Part shown: positions 8,593-41,364 of the stretch, one piece after another
Position numbering within the stretch: the stretch's first letter is position 1
Layout of the letters: each line of letters opens with the position of its first letter
From: Streptomyces sp. CB02058
GTDB taxonomy: Bacteria; Actinomycetota; Actinomycetes; Streptomycetales; Streptomycetaceae
Reading direction: 5' to 3'
NCBI RefSeq assembly: GCF_001905505.1
Contig: NZ_LIPG01000007.1
Coordinates: 186,001-250,000 of the forward strand
DNA length: 64,000 nt
The notes under the pieces: generated by a model
Told to the model about the DNA's origin: nothing
The model's input: the letters and a program-made list of their open reading frames with translations, nothing else
Database searches by the model: none
Program-made: the position numbers and the translations under genes

Positions 8593-8680
8593 AAGAGTTG
8601 GCGTCACCGTCGTCCGTCCGTCGGCTGCGCTGCGCCTGGAGTTCCCCGTGCACACCGCCCCCGGCACAGGGCGGACACGC

Positions 8681-8712
8681 GTCAGGGCGGGGGCACGCGC
8701 CCCCGCCCTGAC
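8681..8712. terminator. Strong hairpin terminator after the acyl-CoA dehydrogenase operon
   Basis: A perfect 14-bp GC-rich stem (GTCAGGGCGGGGGC with its complement) closes on a 4-nt loop. It lies 20 bp beyond the stop of the gene at 8732, so it ends the leftward operon that starts at 11999. Confidence 0.75.
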
Positions 8713-8731
8713 GGTCCGCCGCCGGCCGGAT

Positions 8732-29738: not shown

Positions 29739-30125
29739 TCACCGCCGGGCTGCCGCGGCGGCGGTTTCGGCGGGCGCGTCGCGGAGTCCCAGGCGCAGAT
29801 GCTCCACGTGGTAGAGGGCCTGGTCCAGGAGTTCGGCGACGTGGTGGTCGTACAGGGCGTAGACGATCGAGCGCCCCTGCCTCTCGCCCGCGACGAGTCC
29901 GAGATTCCGCAGCAGCCGCAACTGGTGGGAGCAGGCGGAAGGTTCCATCTCCACCGCTTCGGCGAGGTCACCGACCGCGCAGGGGCCCTCCTGGAGCCGT
30001 GCCAGAATCCGCAGCCGGGACGGGGTGGCCAGCGCCTGGAGGGTCTCGGCGACGCCCGCGGCCCCCACGGCGTCCAGACGCTCGCGGGTGGTTGCGGTGT
30101 TCTGCTCGTCGCGTCCGTGGCCCAT
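29739..30125 (-). CDS. ArsR/SmtB-family metal sensor (alpha5-site type)
   Basis: The 128-residue repressor has the ArsR winged helix (LQALATPSRLRILARLQEGPCAVGDLAEAVEMEPSACSHQLRLLRNLGLV is the span near residues 25-75). In the last helix the spacing Asp-x-His-x10-His-x2-His (DHH...HVEH) is exactly the alpha5 metal site of CzrA/SmtB/NmtR-type Zn, Ni or Co sensors. No ribosome site is present. TAGAAT ends 7 nt before the ATG at 30125, so the message is probably leaderless. It diverges from a P1B-4 ATPase gene, its likely target. Confidence 0.88.
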   Translation of the reverse strand: MGHGRDEQNTATTRERLDAVGAAGVAETLQALATPSRLRILARLQEGPCAVGDLAEAVEMEPSACSHQLRLLRNLGLVAGERQGRSIVYALYDHHVAELLDQALYHVEHLRLGLRDAPAETAAAAARR

Positions 30126-30132
30126 GGCACTC

Positions 30133-30164
30133 ATTCTACGGATGACACATGAAGACCTGTTCAT
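30133..30164. promoter_or_regulatory. ArsR-type operator and leaderless promoter between metal sensor and ATPase
   Basis: ATGAA-N6-TTCAT (30149-30164) matches the core of SmtB/CzrA-type operators. The -10 box TAGAAT for the arsR gene lies at 30133-30138 on the minus strand. The site lies between the divergent genes and can repress both. Confidence 0.65.
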
Positions 30165-30222
30165 ATGTTCCTGTACGGTGGTGGCGTCGCCGTTCCCGCC
30201 GCCCGTGAGGGGTTTCTCCGCC

Positions 30223-32268
30223 ATGCCCGCTGCCGTCATCCCGCGCCCCTCGCGCACCCCGACCGCCGGTCCCGGCACGGTCCCCCGGCGCAGGACCCGC
30301 GTCCTCGCGCTGACGGAGGCCCGCTGGGCGGGCGCCTCCCTGGCGCTGTTCCTGCTGGCGCTGCCGCTCCAGGTCACCGGCGCCCCCGCCTGGGCCTGGG
30401 GCCCGCTGTACGCCCTGGTGTATGCCGCCGGAGGCTGGGAGCCCGCCCTGTCGGGACTGCGGGAGCTGCGGGAGAAGGTCCTGGACGTGGACCTGCTGAT
30501 GATCGTGGCGGCGCTCGGCGCGGCCTCGATCGGACAGGTGATGGACGGGGCGCTGCTGATCGTCATCTTCGCGACCTCGGGAGCACTGGAGGCACTGGCG
30601 ACCGCCCGGACCCAGGACGCCGTACGCGGACTCCTCGACCTGGCGCCGGACACCGCGTCCCGGATCATGCCCGACGGGGGTGAGGAGAGCGTCGCCACCG
30701 AGGACCTCGTGGTCGGTGATGTCATCCGCATCCGCCCGGGAGAGCGGGTCGGCGCCGACGGAAGGGTCCTGGACGGCGCGAGCGAGGTCGACCAGGCCAC
30801 CATCACCGGCGAACCGCTGCCGGTGACGAAGGAGCACGGGGACGAGGTGTTCGCCGGAACGCTGAACGGCACGGGAACGCTGCGGGTCGCCGTCGAGCGC
30901 GACGCCTCGGAGTCCGTGATCGCCCGGATCGTGGCCATGACGGAGGAGGCCTCCCGGACCAAGGCGCCCACCCAGTTGTTCATCGAGAAGGTCGAGCAGC
31001 GCTACTCGCTGGGCATGGTGGCCGCCACCCTGGCCGTCTTCCTCGTACCGCTGGGCTTCGGCGAGGACATGAAGGACAGCCTGCTGCGCGCGATGACCTT
31101 CATGATCGTGGCCTCCCCCTGCGCGGTGGTCCTGGCGACCATGCCGCCGCTGCTCTCCGCCATGGCCAACGCCGGACGCCACGGTGTCCTCGTCAAGTCC
31201 GCCGTCGTGATGGAGCGCCTCGGGCAGGCCGACGCCGTGGCGCTGGACAAGACCGGCACCCTGACGGAGGGCACCCCGCGCGTCACCGACGTCCGCCCGC
31301 TGACCGGTTCCGGGCTGACCGAGGACACGCTGCTCGCCCTGGCGGCCGCCGCCGAGCACGCCAGCGAGCACCCCCTGGCCCGCGCCGTCGTGAACGCCGC
31401 GCAGGAGCGGCGCCTGCCGGTCGCCCCCGCCGGGGACTTCACGTCGGCGCCCGGCACGGGGGTCACGGCCACCGTCGACGGCCACCGGATCGCGGTCGGC
31501 TCGCCCGGGCGACTGCTGCGCGAGGTCTCCACCCGTACGGCCACCACGGCCGCCGCCTTCGACCACGCCGCCTCCGCCGCCGAGGAGCTGGAGGACGGCG
31601 GGCGCACCGCCGTGCTCGTCCTGCGGGACGGCGTGCCGGCCGGGGTGCTGGGAATCGCCGACCGCATGCGCCGGGACGCCGTGGAAACCGTCGCGTCGCT
31701 GGCCCGTCTGACCGGCGGTTCGCCGATGCTGCTGACGGGTGACAACCCGCGCGCCGCCGCCCGGCTGGCCGCCGAGGCGGGCATCACCGACGTTCGCGCG
31801 GGACTGCTCCCCCAGGACAAGGCGGCCGCCGTACGCGAGCAGGAACAGGCGGGGCGCAAGGTCCTGGTGGTGGGCGACGGCGTCAACGACGCGCCCGCGC
31901 TGGCCGCCGCGCACACCGGCATCGCGATGGGCAGGGCCGGCTCCGATCTCGCACTGGAGACCGCGGACGCCGTGATCATCCGAGACGAACTGGCCACCGT
32001 GCCCGCCGTGGTGGCCCTGTCCCGGGCAACGCGCCGGCTGGTCGTGCAGAACCTGGTCATCGCGGGGGTGTTCATCTCCGTCCTGGTGGTCTGGGACCTC
32101 GTCGGCCATCTTCCGCTCCCGCACGGCGTCCTGGGCCACGAGGGCTCCACCGTGATCGTGGGCCTCAACGGCCTCCGGCTGCTGCGCGAATCGGCATGGC
32201 GGCGCGCGGCCGGCCAGGGCCTCACCCCGAAGCCGTCACCCACACCCTCGGAGCCGGCCGCCGCCTGA
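30223..32268 (+). CDS. P1B-4 heavy-metal ATPase (CoaT/CtpD type)
   Basis: The 681-residue pump has the phosphorylation site DKTGTLTEG near residue 343, actuator loop TITGEPLPVTK near 195, hinge GDGVNDAPALAAAH near 555 and HP motif EHPLARAV. The membrane metal site reads SPCAVVLATMPP rather than CPC. The last membrane helix has HEGSTVIVGLNGLRLL. SPC plus HEG(S/G)T defines subgroup P1B-4, which exports cobalt and possibly iron or zinc. There is no N-terminal metal-binding domain, as usual for this group. The divergent ArsR sensor should control it. Confidence 0.9.
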   Translation: MPAAVIPRPSRTPTAGPGTVPRRRTRVLALTEARWAGASLALFLLALPLQVTGAPAWAWGPLYALVYAAGGWEPALSGLRELREKVLDVDLLMIVAALGAASIGQVMDGALLIVIFATSGALEALATARTQDAVRGLLDLAPDTASRIMPDGGEESVATEDLVVGDVIRIRPGERVGADGRVLDGASEVDQATITGEPLPVTKEHGDEVFAGTLNGTGTLRVAVERDASESVIARIVAMTEEASRTKAPTQLFIEKVEQRYSLGMVAATLAVFLVPLGFGEDMKDSLLRAMTFMIVASPCAVVLATMPPLLSAMANAGRHGVLVKSAVVMERLGQADAVALDKTGTLTEGTPRVTDVRPLTGSGLTEDTLLALAAAAEHASEHPLARAVVNAAQERRLPVAPAGDFTSAPGTGVTATVDGHRIAVGSPGRLLREVSTRTATTAAAFDHAASAAEELEDGGRTAVLVLRDGVPAGVLGIADRMRRDAVETVASLARLTGGSPMLLTGDNPRAAARLAAEAGITDVRAGLLPQDKAAAVREQEQAGRKVLVVGDGVNDAPALAAAHTGIAMGRAGSDLALETADAVIIRDELATVPAVVALSRATRRLVVQNLVIAGVFISVLVVWDLVGHLPLPHGVLGHEGSTVIVGLNGLRLLRESAWRRAAGQGLTPKPSPTPSEPAAA

Positions 32269-32368
32269 GGTCCCGTCAGCGCGGGAGGCTCCCGGCGCCT
32301 CACCCGAACCGCGCGACCCGCCGCCATCACGGCCACCTATCGGGCACAATGTCCTATTTGCAACTAAA

Positions 32369-32401
32369 GTCCCCCTCGTATCTGCACCGCACGAGGGGGA
32401 C
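32369..32401 (+). promoter_or_regulatory. Leader hairpin that covers the ribosome site of the antiporter gene
   Basis: GTCCCCCTCGT pairs perfectly over 11 bp with ACGAGGGGGAC, with an 11-nt loop. The right arm contains the GAGGGGGA ribosome site 3-9 nt before the ATG at 32405. The hairpin lies in an AT-richer leader, so it may switch translation, or it may terminate readthrough from the ATPase gene. Confidence 0.55.
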
Positions 32402-32404
32402 CAG

Positions 32405-33859
32405 ATGACAAGCTCCCGCACCGGGACCGACGTCTCCGAAGGACCGGCCACCCCGGTCAAGATGTCGCTGCTGACGCTGACCATGATGGTGGTCGGCTCG
32501 ATGGTCGGCGCCGGAGTGTTCTCCCTGCCGTCGCGCTTCGCCCAGGAGACGGGTGTGGCGGGGGCACTGATCGCCTGGGCGATCGCCGGGACGGGCATGC
32601 TGATGCTCGCCTTCGTCTTCCAGACGCTCGCGGTGCGCCGGCCGGATCTCGACGCCGGTGTCTACGCCTACGCCAAGGCCGGATTCGGCGAGTATCTCGG
32701 CTTCTTCTCCGCGTTCGGATACTGGGCCAGCGCCTGCGTCGGCAATGTGACGTACTGGGTGCTGATCACGTCGACGGTCGGGGCCGTGTGGCCGGCCCTC
32801 GGCGACGGCGACACGCTGGTGGCCGTGGTCGTGTCCACGGCCGGGCTCTGGGCCTTCTACTTCCTCATCCGCCGGGGCGTGAAGGAGGCGGCGGCCATCA
32901 ACAGGGTGGTCACCGTCGCCAAGGTGGTCCCGATCATCGTGTTCGTGATCCTGGCCCTGTTCTTCTTCGACGCATCGGTGTTCGCCGACAACTTCGGCGG
33001 CGCGGACTACGCCGGCTCCCTGTTCAACCAGGTGCGCGGCACCATGCTGGCCACGGTGTTCGTCTTCCTGGGTGTGGAGGGCGCCAGCGTCTATTCGCGC
33101 CACGCCAGGCGACGCGAGGACATCGGGCGCGCCACCGTCCTCGGCTTCCTCAGCGTCTTCGCCGTCTTCGCCTCGGTCACGATCGTCTCGTACGGCATCA
33201 TGCCGATGGCCGAGATCGCCGACCTCCGCCAGCCCTCCATGGCAGCGGTGCTGGAGGAGGCGGTCGGTACCTGGGGCCAGGTCTTCGTGAGCGTGGGGCT
33301 GATCGTCTCCGTGCTCGGCGCGTATCTCGCCTGGACCCTGATGGCCGCCGAGGTGCTGTTCGTCGCCGCCAAGGACCACGACATGCCGCGCTTCCTGCGC
33401 CACGCCAACAGCGCCGACGTGCCGGTGCCCGCCCTGCTGATGACGACGCTGCTGTCCCAGGTCGTCCTGGTGATCACGCTCTTCTCGGACGACGCGTTCA
33501 ACTTCGCCCTCGATCTGACCAGTGCGCTGTCCCTGATCCCGTTCCTGCTCGCCGCCGCGTTCGCCGTCAAGATCATGGTCCGTCCCGACGAACTGACCAG
33601 GGGAACGGCCAAGCGGCGCGACCTGACCGTCGGCATCGTGGCGACGCTCTACACGGCGTTCCTGCTCTTCGCCGCCGGACTGAAATTCGTCCTGGTCTCC
33701 TTCATCATCTACGCCCCTGCCACGATCCTGTTCGCGATGGCCCGCAGGGAACAGGGACGGCGGGTCTTCTCCCCCGCCGAACGCCTCATCTGCGCCGTCT
33801 CCGTCGCGGGGGCCGTGGTCGGGGTGATCGCCCTGGCGGCGGGATGGATCAGCCTCTGA
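32405..33859 (+). CDS. arcD: Arginine/ornithine antiporter, APC family (ArcD-like)
   Basis: The 484-residue protein is an APC-superfamily carrier with about 12 membrane segments. It starts [28 protein letters not shown], the helix-1 substrate motif with GxG, and continues with [30 protein letters not shown]. This pattern is that of basic-amino-acid/polyamine antiporters such as ArcD. The next gene encodes arginine deiminase, which supports exchange of arginine for ornithine. The start codon is preceded by a ribosome site buried in a hairpin. Confidence 0.85.
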
Positions 33860-33905
33860 GGTCCGCACTCCCCGCGTCCGCTTCCCGACCGAAAGGCAGC
33901 CCTTC

Positions 33906-35171
33906 ATGACGAACACCTCCGCCTCCGGCGCGCCTGCCGTGCACGGCGTCCACTCCGAGGTCGGCAAGCTGCGCAAGGTGCTCGTCTGCGCACCGGGCCT
34001 CGCCCACCGCAGGCTCACCCCGGGCAACGCAGGTGACCTGCTCTTCGACGACGTGATGTGGGTGGAGAACGCGCAGCGCGACCACGCCGACTTCGTCGGC
34101 AAGCTCCAGCAGGGCGGCGTAGAGGTCGTGGAGCTGCACGACGTACTGGCGCGGACGGTCGCCGATCCCACGGCCAGGTCATGGCTCCTCGACCGCAAGA
34201 TCACCGCCAATGAGGTCGGCCTGGGTCTCATCGACGCGACCCGTGCCTACCTCGAGTCGCTGGAACCGCGTGAGCTCGCCGAGTATCTGATCGGCGGGCT
34301 GGCCACCGCCGACCTGCCCGACGACTACCGGTCCGGCTATCTCGCCCTGGCGCGCGAGTCGACGGGGGTGCGCGAATATCTGATGCCGCCCCTGCCCAAC
34401 ACGCTCTACACCCGCGACACCACCTGCTGGCTGTACGGAGGGGTGACGCTCAACCCCCTCTACTGGCCCGCGCGTCACGACGAGACGCTGTTGATGAAGG
34501 CGGTCTACCTCTTCCACCCGGACTTCACCGGAGCCAGGGTCTGGTGGGGCGACCCCGAGCAGGAGTGGGGCCAGGCCACCTTCGAGGGCGGCGACATCAT
34601 GCCGGTCGGCAACGGTGTCGTCCTCATGGGCATGAGTGAGCGCACCTCCCGCCAGGCCATCACCCAGGTCGCGGCCTCGCTCTTCGCGCAGGGGGCCGCC
34701 GAGCACGTCGTCGTCGCGGGGATGCCCAAACTGCGGACAGCCATGCACCTGGACACGGTCTTCACCTTCGCCGACCGCGACATCGTGACGGTCTACCCGA
34801 CGATCATGGACGCGGTCCGCACGTTCTCCCTCCGTCCGAGCGACAGGTCCCCCGGGGTGGAGGTCACCGACGAGGGTTCCCGGGCCTTCACCGACGTCGT
34901 GGCCAAGAGCCTCGGGCTGCCCTCCCTGCGGGTGATCGAGACGGGCGGCGACGTGTACGCCTCCGAGCGCCAGCAGTGGGACAGCGGAAACAACGCCGTG
35001 GCGCTCGAACCCGGGGTCGTGTTCACCTACGACCGCAACACCCAGACCAATGATCTGCTGCGCGCGGCGGGCGTGGAAGTCATCACGATCGTCGGCGCGG
35101 AGCTGGGACGCGGCCGGGGCGGGGGGCACTGCATGACGTGCCCGCTCATCCGCGAGCCGGTGGATTTCTGA
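33906..35171 (+). CDS. arcA: Arginine deiminase
   Basis: The 421-residue enzyme converts L-arginine to citrulline and ammonia. Landmarks are [25 protein letters not shown] at the start, the substrate/catalytic loops [53 protein letters not shown] (catalytic His), and the nucleophile Cys in [18 protein letters not shown] near residue 406. It lies 46 bp behind the antiporter. No ornithine carbamoyltransferase or carbamate kinase follows, so the pathway here is incomplete or used for citrulline or ammonia formation only. Confidence 0.95.
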
Positions 35172-35213: not shown

Positions 35214-35242
35214 GCCGTCCCACGGTCGCGCCGTGGGACGGC
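35214..35242. terminator. Strong terminator between arcA and the convergent MFS gene
   Basis: A perfect 12-bp stem (right arm CCGTGGGACGGC) with a 5-nt loop sits in the 105-bp gap between two converging stops. It can serve both transcripts. Confidence 0.8.
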
Positions 35243-41236: not shown

Positions 41237-41307
41237 GGAGATGGTCGTGCCTCTCGGGTCGGTGAACGTGCGTCATGGTCAGCAGCCACGTGGCCGTGAC
41301 CGTCGCC

Positions 41308-41343
41308 GGCGCGCGGGACGGAAGTGACTCCGTCCCGCGCGCC
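41308..41343 (-). terminator. Very strong terminator after the amylase gene
   Basis: A perfect 15-bp GC-rich stem with a 6-nt loop (AGTGAC) begins 21 bp past the amylase stop and separates it from the kinase gene on the same strand. Confidence 0.8.
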
Positions 41344-41364
41344 GGGTGTGTCTGGTCCGGCCGG

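Follow-up and report, generated by a model that had tools for sequence, protein, structure and literature searches.

The gene arcD of Streptomyces sp. CB02058, encoding a protein of the arginine/ornithine antiporter family, is preceded by a perfect 11-bp hairpin, which covers its Shine–Dalgarno (SD) sequence and the left arm of which overlaps the −10 element of a predicted arcD promoter. Our leading interpretation, held with about even confidence, is that the hairpin is a silencer of read-through transcripts nested in the arcD promoter. Transcripts derived from the heavy-metal P-type ATPase gene upstream would carry both arms and form the hairpin, thereby hiding the arcD SD, and with only the metal operon switched on, arcD would not be translated. 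Polymerase initiating at the arcD promoter would start at about position 32377 and produce an mRNA devoid of most of the left arm, which would be freely translated. What the computation shows is a stem that covers the SD, a promoter supported by orthologues and overlapping this left arm, an ATPase gene running in the direction of arcD, and a predicted difference in SD opening.

The hairpin and its genomic context

The window (the whole stretch of 64,000 nucleotides that was analysed) contains the following features around the hairpin. L031 and L111 denote the arcD loci of the two closest related species.

29739–30152 (start approximate), minus strand: coding stretch of an ArsR/SmtB metalloregulator, divergent from the ATPase gene (protein models)
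30025–32268 (5′ end approximate), plus strand: heavy-metal P-type ATPase (TIGR01525 and TIGR01512 above cutoff)
32369–32379, plus strand: left arm of the hairpin, GTCCCCCTCGT, the anti-SD strand (sequence letters, RNA folding, stem count)
32380–32390, plus strand: loop of 11 nt, ATCTGCACCGC (sequence letters; of equal length in L031 and L111)
32391–32401, plus strand: right arm of the hairpin, ACGAGGGGGAC (sequence letters, RNA folding, stem count)
32393–32400, plus strand: SD stretch GAGGGGGA, within the right arm
32405–33859, plus strand: arcD, arginine/ornithine antiporter family, 484 amino acids (open reading frame, protein models)
33906–35171, plus strand: arcA, arginine deiminase, 421 amino acids (open reading frame, protein models)

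The arcD product passes the broader model TIGR00905 and reaches 540 bits with the arginine–ornithine antiporter model TIGR03810, which is under the cutoff of 591. The arcA product exceeds the cutoff of the arginine deiminase model NF002381 and narrowly misses that of TIGR01078. The ATPase gene is co-directional with arcD and ends 136 nt before it; no notable RNA structure was found in the gap between the ATPase gene and the arcD promoter (z +0.77). On the opposite strand, 3′ of arcA, lies a gene for an MFS transporter, the best match of which was the DHA2-type model TIGR00711, below cutoff. A perfect 12-bp hairpin at 35214–35242, 42 nt past arcA, is likely the terminator between arcA and this opposing gene.

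The first-pass annotation had described a perfect 11-bp stem in front of arcD with the ribosome site in its right arm and no T-tract behind it, and all three observations were confirmed. Positions 32369–32379 pair with 32391–32401, and the right arm is followed by the three nucleotides CAG and the arcD ATG at 32405. The letters after the stem are CAGATGACAAG and contain no T-tract, and a consensus terminator scan of 32100–32600 returned no terminator-like match. The duplex of the arcD SD with the anti-SD amounts to −10.7 kcal/mol. The stem was retained in RNA folding with a z-score of −2.31, 4 of 200 dinucleotide shuffles being equally or more stable. Within a transcript from −100 to +40, opening of the SD was calculated to cost 20.2 kcal/mol, which places arcD third among 500 genes, itself counted, that were called by a rough in-house method in an 800-kb portion of its genome (median 5.5 kcal/mol). 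The two genes ranked above it look like starts miscalled within terminators. The arcD SD is also the hardest to open among 95 nonredundant arcD leaders, its own included; L138, a locus of one of the close relatives, is fourth (10.6 kcal/mol).

Perfect stems of at least 11 bp with loops of 3–15 nt occur ten times in the window, whereas 20 first-order Markov simulations yielded 1.0 on average; several of the ten may be terminators. Among the very strong perfect stems, those of 17 bp at 41306–41345 and of 15 bp at 8680–8713 are perhaps terminators as well. Taking the simulated rate, ten permitted positions of the arm and an assumed number of about 7,000 genes, we estimate that chance would put a stem of this kind over a start site about once per genome, and the stem alone is therefore not decisive.

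A further gene of the same genome, encoding a kinase-like protein with a Pkinase domain and starting at L206:9338, has its SD covered by a perfect 11-bp stem (loop of 7 nt; L206:9280–9340), directly 3′ of a CAGGGT/TATGGC stretch. No like stem over the start was found in three homologues of this gene (45–61% identity), and we therefore do not claim a general class of SD-covering stems.

A predicted arcD promoter overlapping the left arm

Relatives of arcD were collected from 61 genomes, from a scan of species representatives (80 of 277 loci kept) and from 392 genomes of the genus; in 70 of the latter, counting the own genome, an arcD match at E 1e-150 or better was present. An unsupervised motif search in the 130–160 nt upstream of nonredundant arcD orthologues revealed a composite motif consisting of a GGGCA/GGACA element and TANNNT at an 18-nt spacing, which was found with 111 regions and again with 95. 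In the latter run, the posterior was at least 0.5 in 75 regions, and a canonical TANNNT with a posterior >0.9 was present in 56. A profile built from 54 canonical sites, with the close clade excluded, scored 20.6 bits at 32341–32370, the first of 127,942 window positions on both strands (second position 13.5 bits). A consensus sigma-70 scan of 32100–32600 gave no match. The motif places the following elements in front of arcD.

32341–32346, plus strand: −35-like element CGGGCA of the proposed arcD promoter, with an 18-nt spacer to the −10 element (orthologue-derived motif)
32365–32370, plus strand: −10 element TAAAGT (orthologue-derived motif; invariant in L031 and L111)
32375–32379, plus strand: predicted transcript start zone, nominally 32377 (from the position of the −10 element)

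The left arm begins with the last two bases of TAAAGT. Given the usual distance between a −10 element and +1, transcription from the own promoter of arcD is predicted to start near 32377, inside the left arm. Across the 56 canonical sites, the −10 element lies anywhere between 7 and 124 nt from the assigned start codon, which indicates that the conserved unit is the promoter and not the leader. The arc promoter motif, shared across the orthologues, is directly usable.

The predicted start bears on the proposal of the first-pass annotation that translation of arcD could depend on melting or remodelling of the hairpin; that normal arcD expression requires such melting is probably wrong. A transcript start inside the loop had been named there as the observation that would speak against this proposal; the start zone lies in the left arm instead of the loop, which in essence amounts to the same. 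A start inside the hairpin is thus probable for the normal mRNA, and the hairpin would act on a different RNA, the read-through from the ATPase gene. Besides the transcript start, we infer the read-through, its translational effect and the benefit of that effect. The absence of an evident terminator is no proof of read-through.

Several features of other arcD leaders were noted in the course of the motif search. In some Streptomyces orthologues, the GGGCA-like element is apparently repeated 18–22 nt further upstream (second element >5 bits at 22 nt in 7 of 48 sites and at 19 nt in 6 of 48), which looks as if an activator bound tandem sites. In L078 and L100, the −10 element is located only 9 and 7 nt, respectively, before the assigned start codon, which suggests that these arcD mRNAs are leaderless. 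A different leader type in L050, L061, L064, L072, L074, and L136 shares a block GATGCCCGAAG..GCACAGTGGT, recognized by eye, which is perhaps another operator and promoter.

Predicted SD opening and conservation in relatives

According to folding predictions, opening of the arcD SD costs 20.6 kcal/mol in read-through RNA with both arms and between 6.7 and 4.4 kcal/mol in RNAs with 5′ ends from 32376 to 32382. When the 5′ end was moved stepwise, the cost fell from 17.5 kcal/mol at ATG−36, the first base of the arm, to 7.1 kcal/mol at ATG−31 (32374), and it was at most 7.1 kcal/mol for all 5′ ends from there onward. The value of 7.1 kcal/mol comes close to the median of 5.5 kcal/mol for the genome. 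In L111, read-through RNA requires 12.5 kcal/mol as compared to 4.5–5.2 kcal/mol for own-promoter RNA. The corresponding values in L031 are 11.9 and 8.6–9.7 kcal/mol, a difference of only 2–3 kcal/mol, and with the 5′ end of the read-through RNA at −60 (9.1 kcal/mol) there is no difference; in the predicted own-promoter folds of this locus, the SD pairs with the start of the coding sequence. Read-through RNA of the window in which the order of the left arm was reversed still required 12–14 kcal/mol, and part of the masking is therefore due to the C-run alone. Among arcD orthologues in general, the median cost of SD opening was 5.8 kcal/mol behind co-directional and 5.0 kcal/mol behind divergent genes (p 0.056; 40 and 49 of 93 loci, respectively, window included, with rough orientation calls), and masking is thus not clearly stronger behind co-directional genes.

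Only two other species among those returned are close to the window (93% protein identity of ArcD), namely S. silvae (L031, and L138/G648 with the same leader) and G378 (L111/L167). The relative set may omit records very near the window, and draws of 394, 361, and 297 genomes, which partly overlapped, contained no further close species for an analysis of covariation. Both relatives retain the layout of GTTCCCTCGT, an 11-nt loop, ATGAGGGGAC, and ATG. Their stem comprises 10 bp including two G-U pairs; compared with the window, G-U replaces G-C at two pairs through a change on one side only, and each arm is shorter by one nucleotide. All 29 scored cells were paired (4 gap cells set aside), as against 42–62% in slid controls; a shuffle control was as high in 500 of 500 cases, the three rows being too few to discriminate. 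The stem sequence is identical in L031 and L111, for which reason they count as one independent comparison. Of the compensatory changes that the first-pass annotation had suggested looking for in orthologues, no two-sided substitution was found in the stem among the window and the two relatives, and what stood up was that pairing is kept in both. The conservation evidence is supportive but thin.

The ATPase gene is located 5′ of arcD and co-directional with it in the window species and in both relatives. Among 148 loci whose arcD match reached 60% identity or more, seven showed it within the available flank, and all of these seven come from the three species. The association between the ATPase gene and the long stem is confounded by shared descent. 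For plasmids, similarity was confined to the coding part among the matches listed (20 of 68).

Alternative explanations and related systems

The main rival to the read-through silencer is a fortuitous complementarity, in which the tail of the −10 element and the SD match each other although each is under its own constraint, and the hairpin is without function. We regard this as possible, if rather doubtful. The promoter tail after the −10 element tends to TTCCC/GTCCC (GTCcC in the motif) and the SD to GAGGGGA, and outside the clade, L122, L047, and L113 show 8–9 pairs between the two, as does L153 with an interruption; the estimate of about one such stem per genome by chance and the absence of the long stem from the other arcD leaders, among those listed, point in the same direction. 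However, the stem of 11 bp exceeds these shared letters and SD opening ranks third of 500 genes, and in the relatives the two varying pairs still pair and the difference in length is matched in both arms. The hairpin could also belong to the 3′ end of the ATPase transcript, as an intrinsic terminator without T residues or as an RNA-stability hairpin, its overlap with the arcD promoter and SD being incidental. Such an element would provide an identical insulation, the stem is strong and G+C-rich, and the gap between the ATPase gene and the promoter holds no other notable structure. We nevertheless consider it unlikely, and a canonical intrinsic terminator was rejected: there is no T-tract, and the stem is located 3 nt before the ATG and not near the ATPase stop codon, which is 100 nt upstream.

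A role of the dyad at the DNA level, as the operator of a repressor bound over the arcD −10 element and start site, fits its palindromic nature and its position between −8 and +25 relative to the predicted start. Five other places in the genome match it with 3 mismatches, as compared to two for a reversed control, but no other genome copy has fewer than 3, so that a repeated operator is not supported by genome-wide copies of the dyad; moreover, two positions in the relatives are G-T mismatches as DNA and yet paired as RNA. This makes an operator very unlikely. The least probable reading, to which we assign hardly any weight, is the one suggested by the first-pass annotation, a regulated leader (a thermometer, or remodelled by a protein or ligand) gating all arcD translation. 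It would account for an SD lying wholly in the right arm, whereas for own-promoter RNA a start within the left arm is predicted, and a search of 31900–34300 for a riboswitch, T-box, or other Rfam leader gave two matches with E up to 1, both far under the gathering scores.

An OsdR/DevR (DosR) box had been considered first, in view of the similarity of ACTAAAGTCCC to one half of the consensus, and was rejected. The sequence GCAACTAAAGTCCC has 2 mismatches to GGGAC-N4-GTCCC, a degree of similarity no rarer in the window than by chance (69 matches as against 117.7 expected), and is not retained in L031 and L111. Neither the 20-nt consensus nor the Streptomyces consensus in the accessible part of PMC5069765 has a match here at up to 3 mismatches. 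The word arginine is absent from the accessible main text of that article on OsdR.

A silencing of read-through transcripts might also be a more general property, in that an anti-SD strand would be a recurrent part of the −10/start region of Streptomyces arginine deiminase promoters and correct initiation would remove the block. We think this quite unlikely. When the pairing of the −10/start region with its own SD was compared to that with permuted SDs, p was 0.007 with the window clade (54 orthologues) and 0.073 without it (52 orthologues). In a sliding version without the clade, the own SD paired better than those of other genes at some offsets, with 0.069 at the same offset and 0.006 and 0.010 at two neighbouring offsets; some supposedly neutral upstream offsets reached 0.03–0.06. 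These p-values, from 17 offsets and 12 subset tests, are uncorrected and include shared descent. If recurrent, the arrangement would be a general and sequence-cheap insulation of genes from read-through.

Hairpins that silence read-through transcripts have counterparts elsewhere. In the fold-back inhibition of the IS10 transposase, transcripts impinging from outside hide the SD and those from the own promoter do not; in contrast to arcD, IS10 is a mobile element. According to excerpts of PMC3014915, early long transcripts of phage T4 gene e fold into an inhibitory structure and lysozyme synthesis is reduced 100-fold in comparison to transcripts without it; the late promoter lies within the DNA encoding the 5′ strand of the helix, so that late transcripts lack the 5′ portion, and I-TevI is a like case. 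The predicted parallel in arcD consists in an SD that would be held in a helix in long RNA started upstream and an RNA from the proximal promoter that would lack the 5′ strand and be well translated. The T4 case, however, involves phage timing and a phage late sigma factor and was shown experimentally, whereas the arcD case is chromosomal, has a vegetative-type promoter and is predicted only. For Bacillus subtilis sigG, downstream of spoIIGA-sigE, a hairpin has been proposed to block translation of read-through transcripts (PMC5942855, in part). Like arcD, sigG is chromosomal, and its transcripts from the own promoter cannot form the hairpin, as is predicted for arcD; the sigG stem has 20 or more bp and developmental sigma factors are involved, as compared to a stem of 11 bp at arcD, where an operon for arginine deiminase follows a metal ATPase gene. 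The translational T-box of actinobacterial ileS likewise hides the SD in a hairpin, but it is a T-box leader and no described sensor was found at arcD; as far as the excerpted text of PMC1262725 goes, no conserved RNA structure was present upstream of arginine operons in the genomes analysed there.

T4 gene e and sigG are characterized by an SD or start codon in a stable helix, which is also predicted for arcD. A proximal promoter yielding RNA devoid of the 5′ strand is predicted for arcD from the orthologue profile and the stepwise shift of the 5′ end, and the co-directional ATPase gene is a candidate source of read-through. The arcD hairpin is likely a member of this kind. Judging from titles and the openings of abstracts among the matches listed, no such hairpin has been reported for a Streptomyces arc gene. 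The muting of read-through transcripts by a hairpin is already known from phage and Bacillus, and Streptomyces arcD is likely a new example. If true, it would be a simple chromosomal case from a high-G+C actinobacterium, in which a hairpin sorts transcripts by their start point, and it would explain how a dense genome stops a metal-response transcript from switching on arginine catabolism. It would also advise caution, as long as the start of a transcript has not been established, against interpreting each SD-masking hairpin in a genome as a regulated leader.
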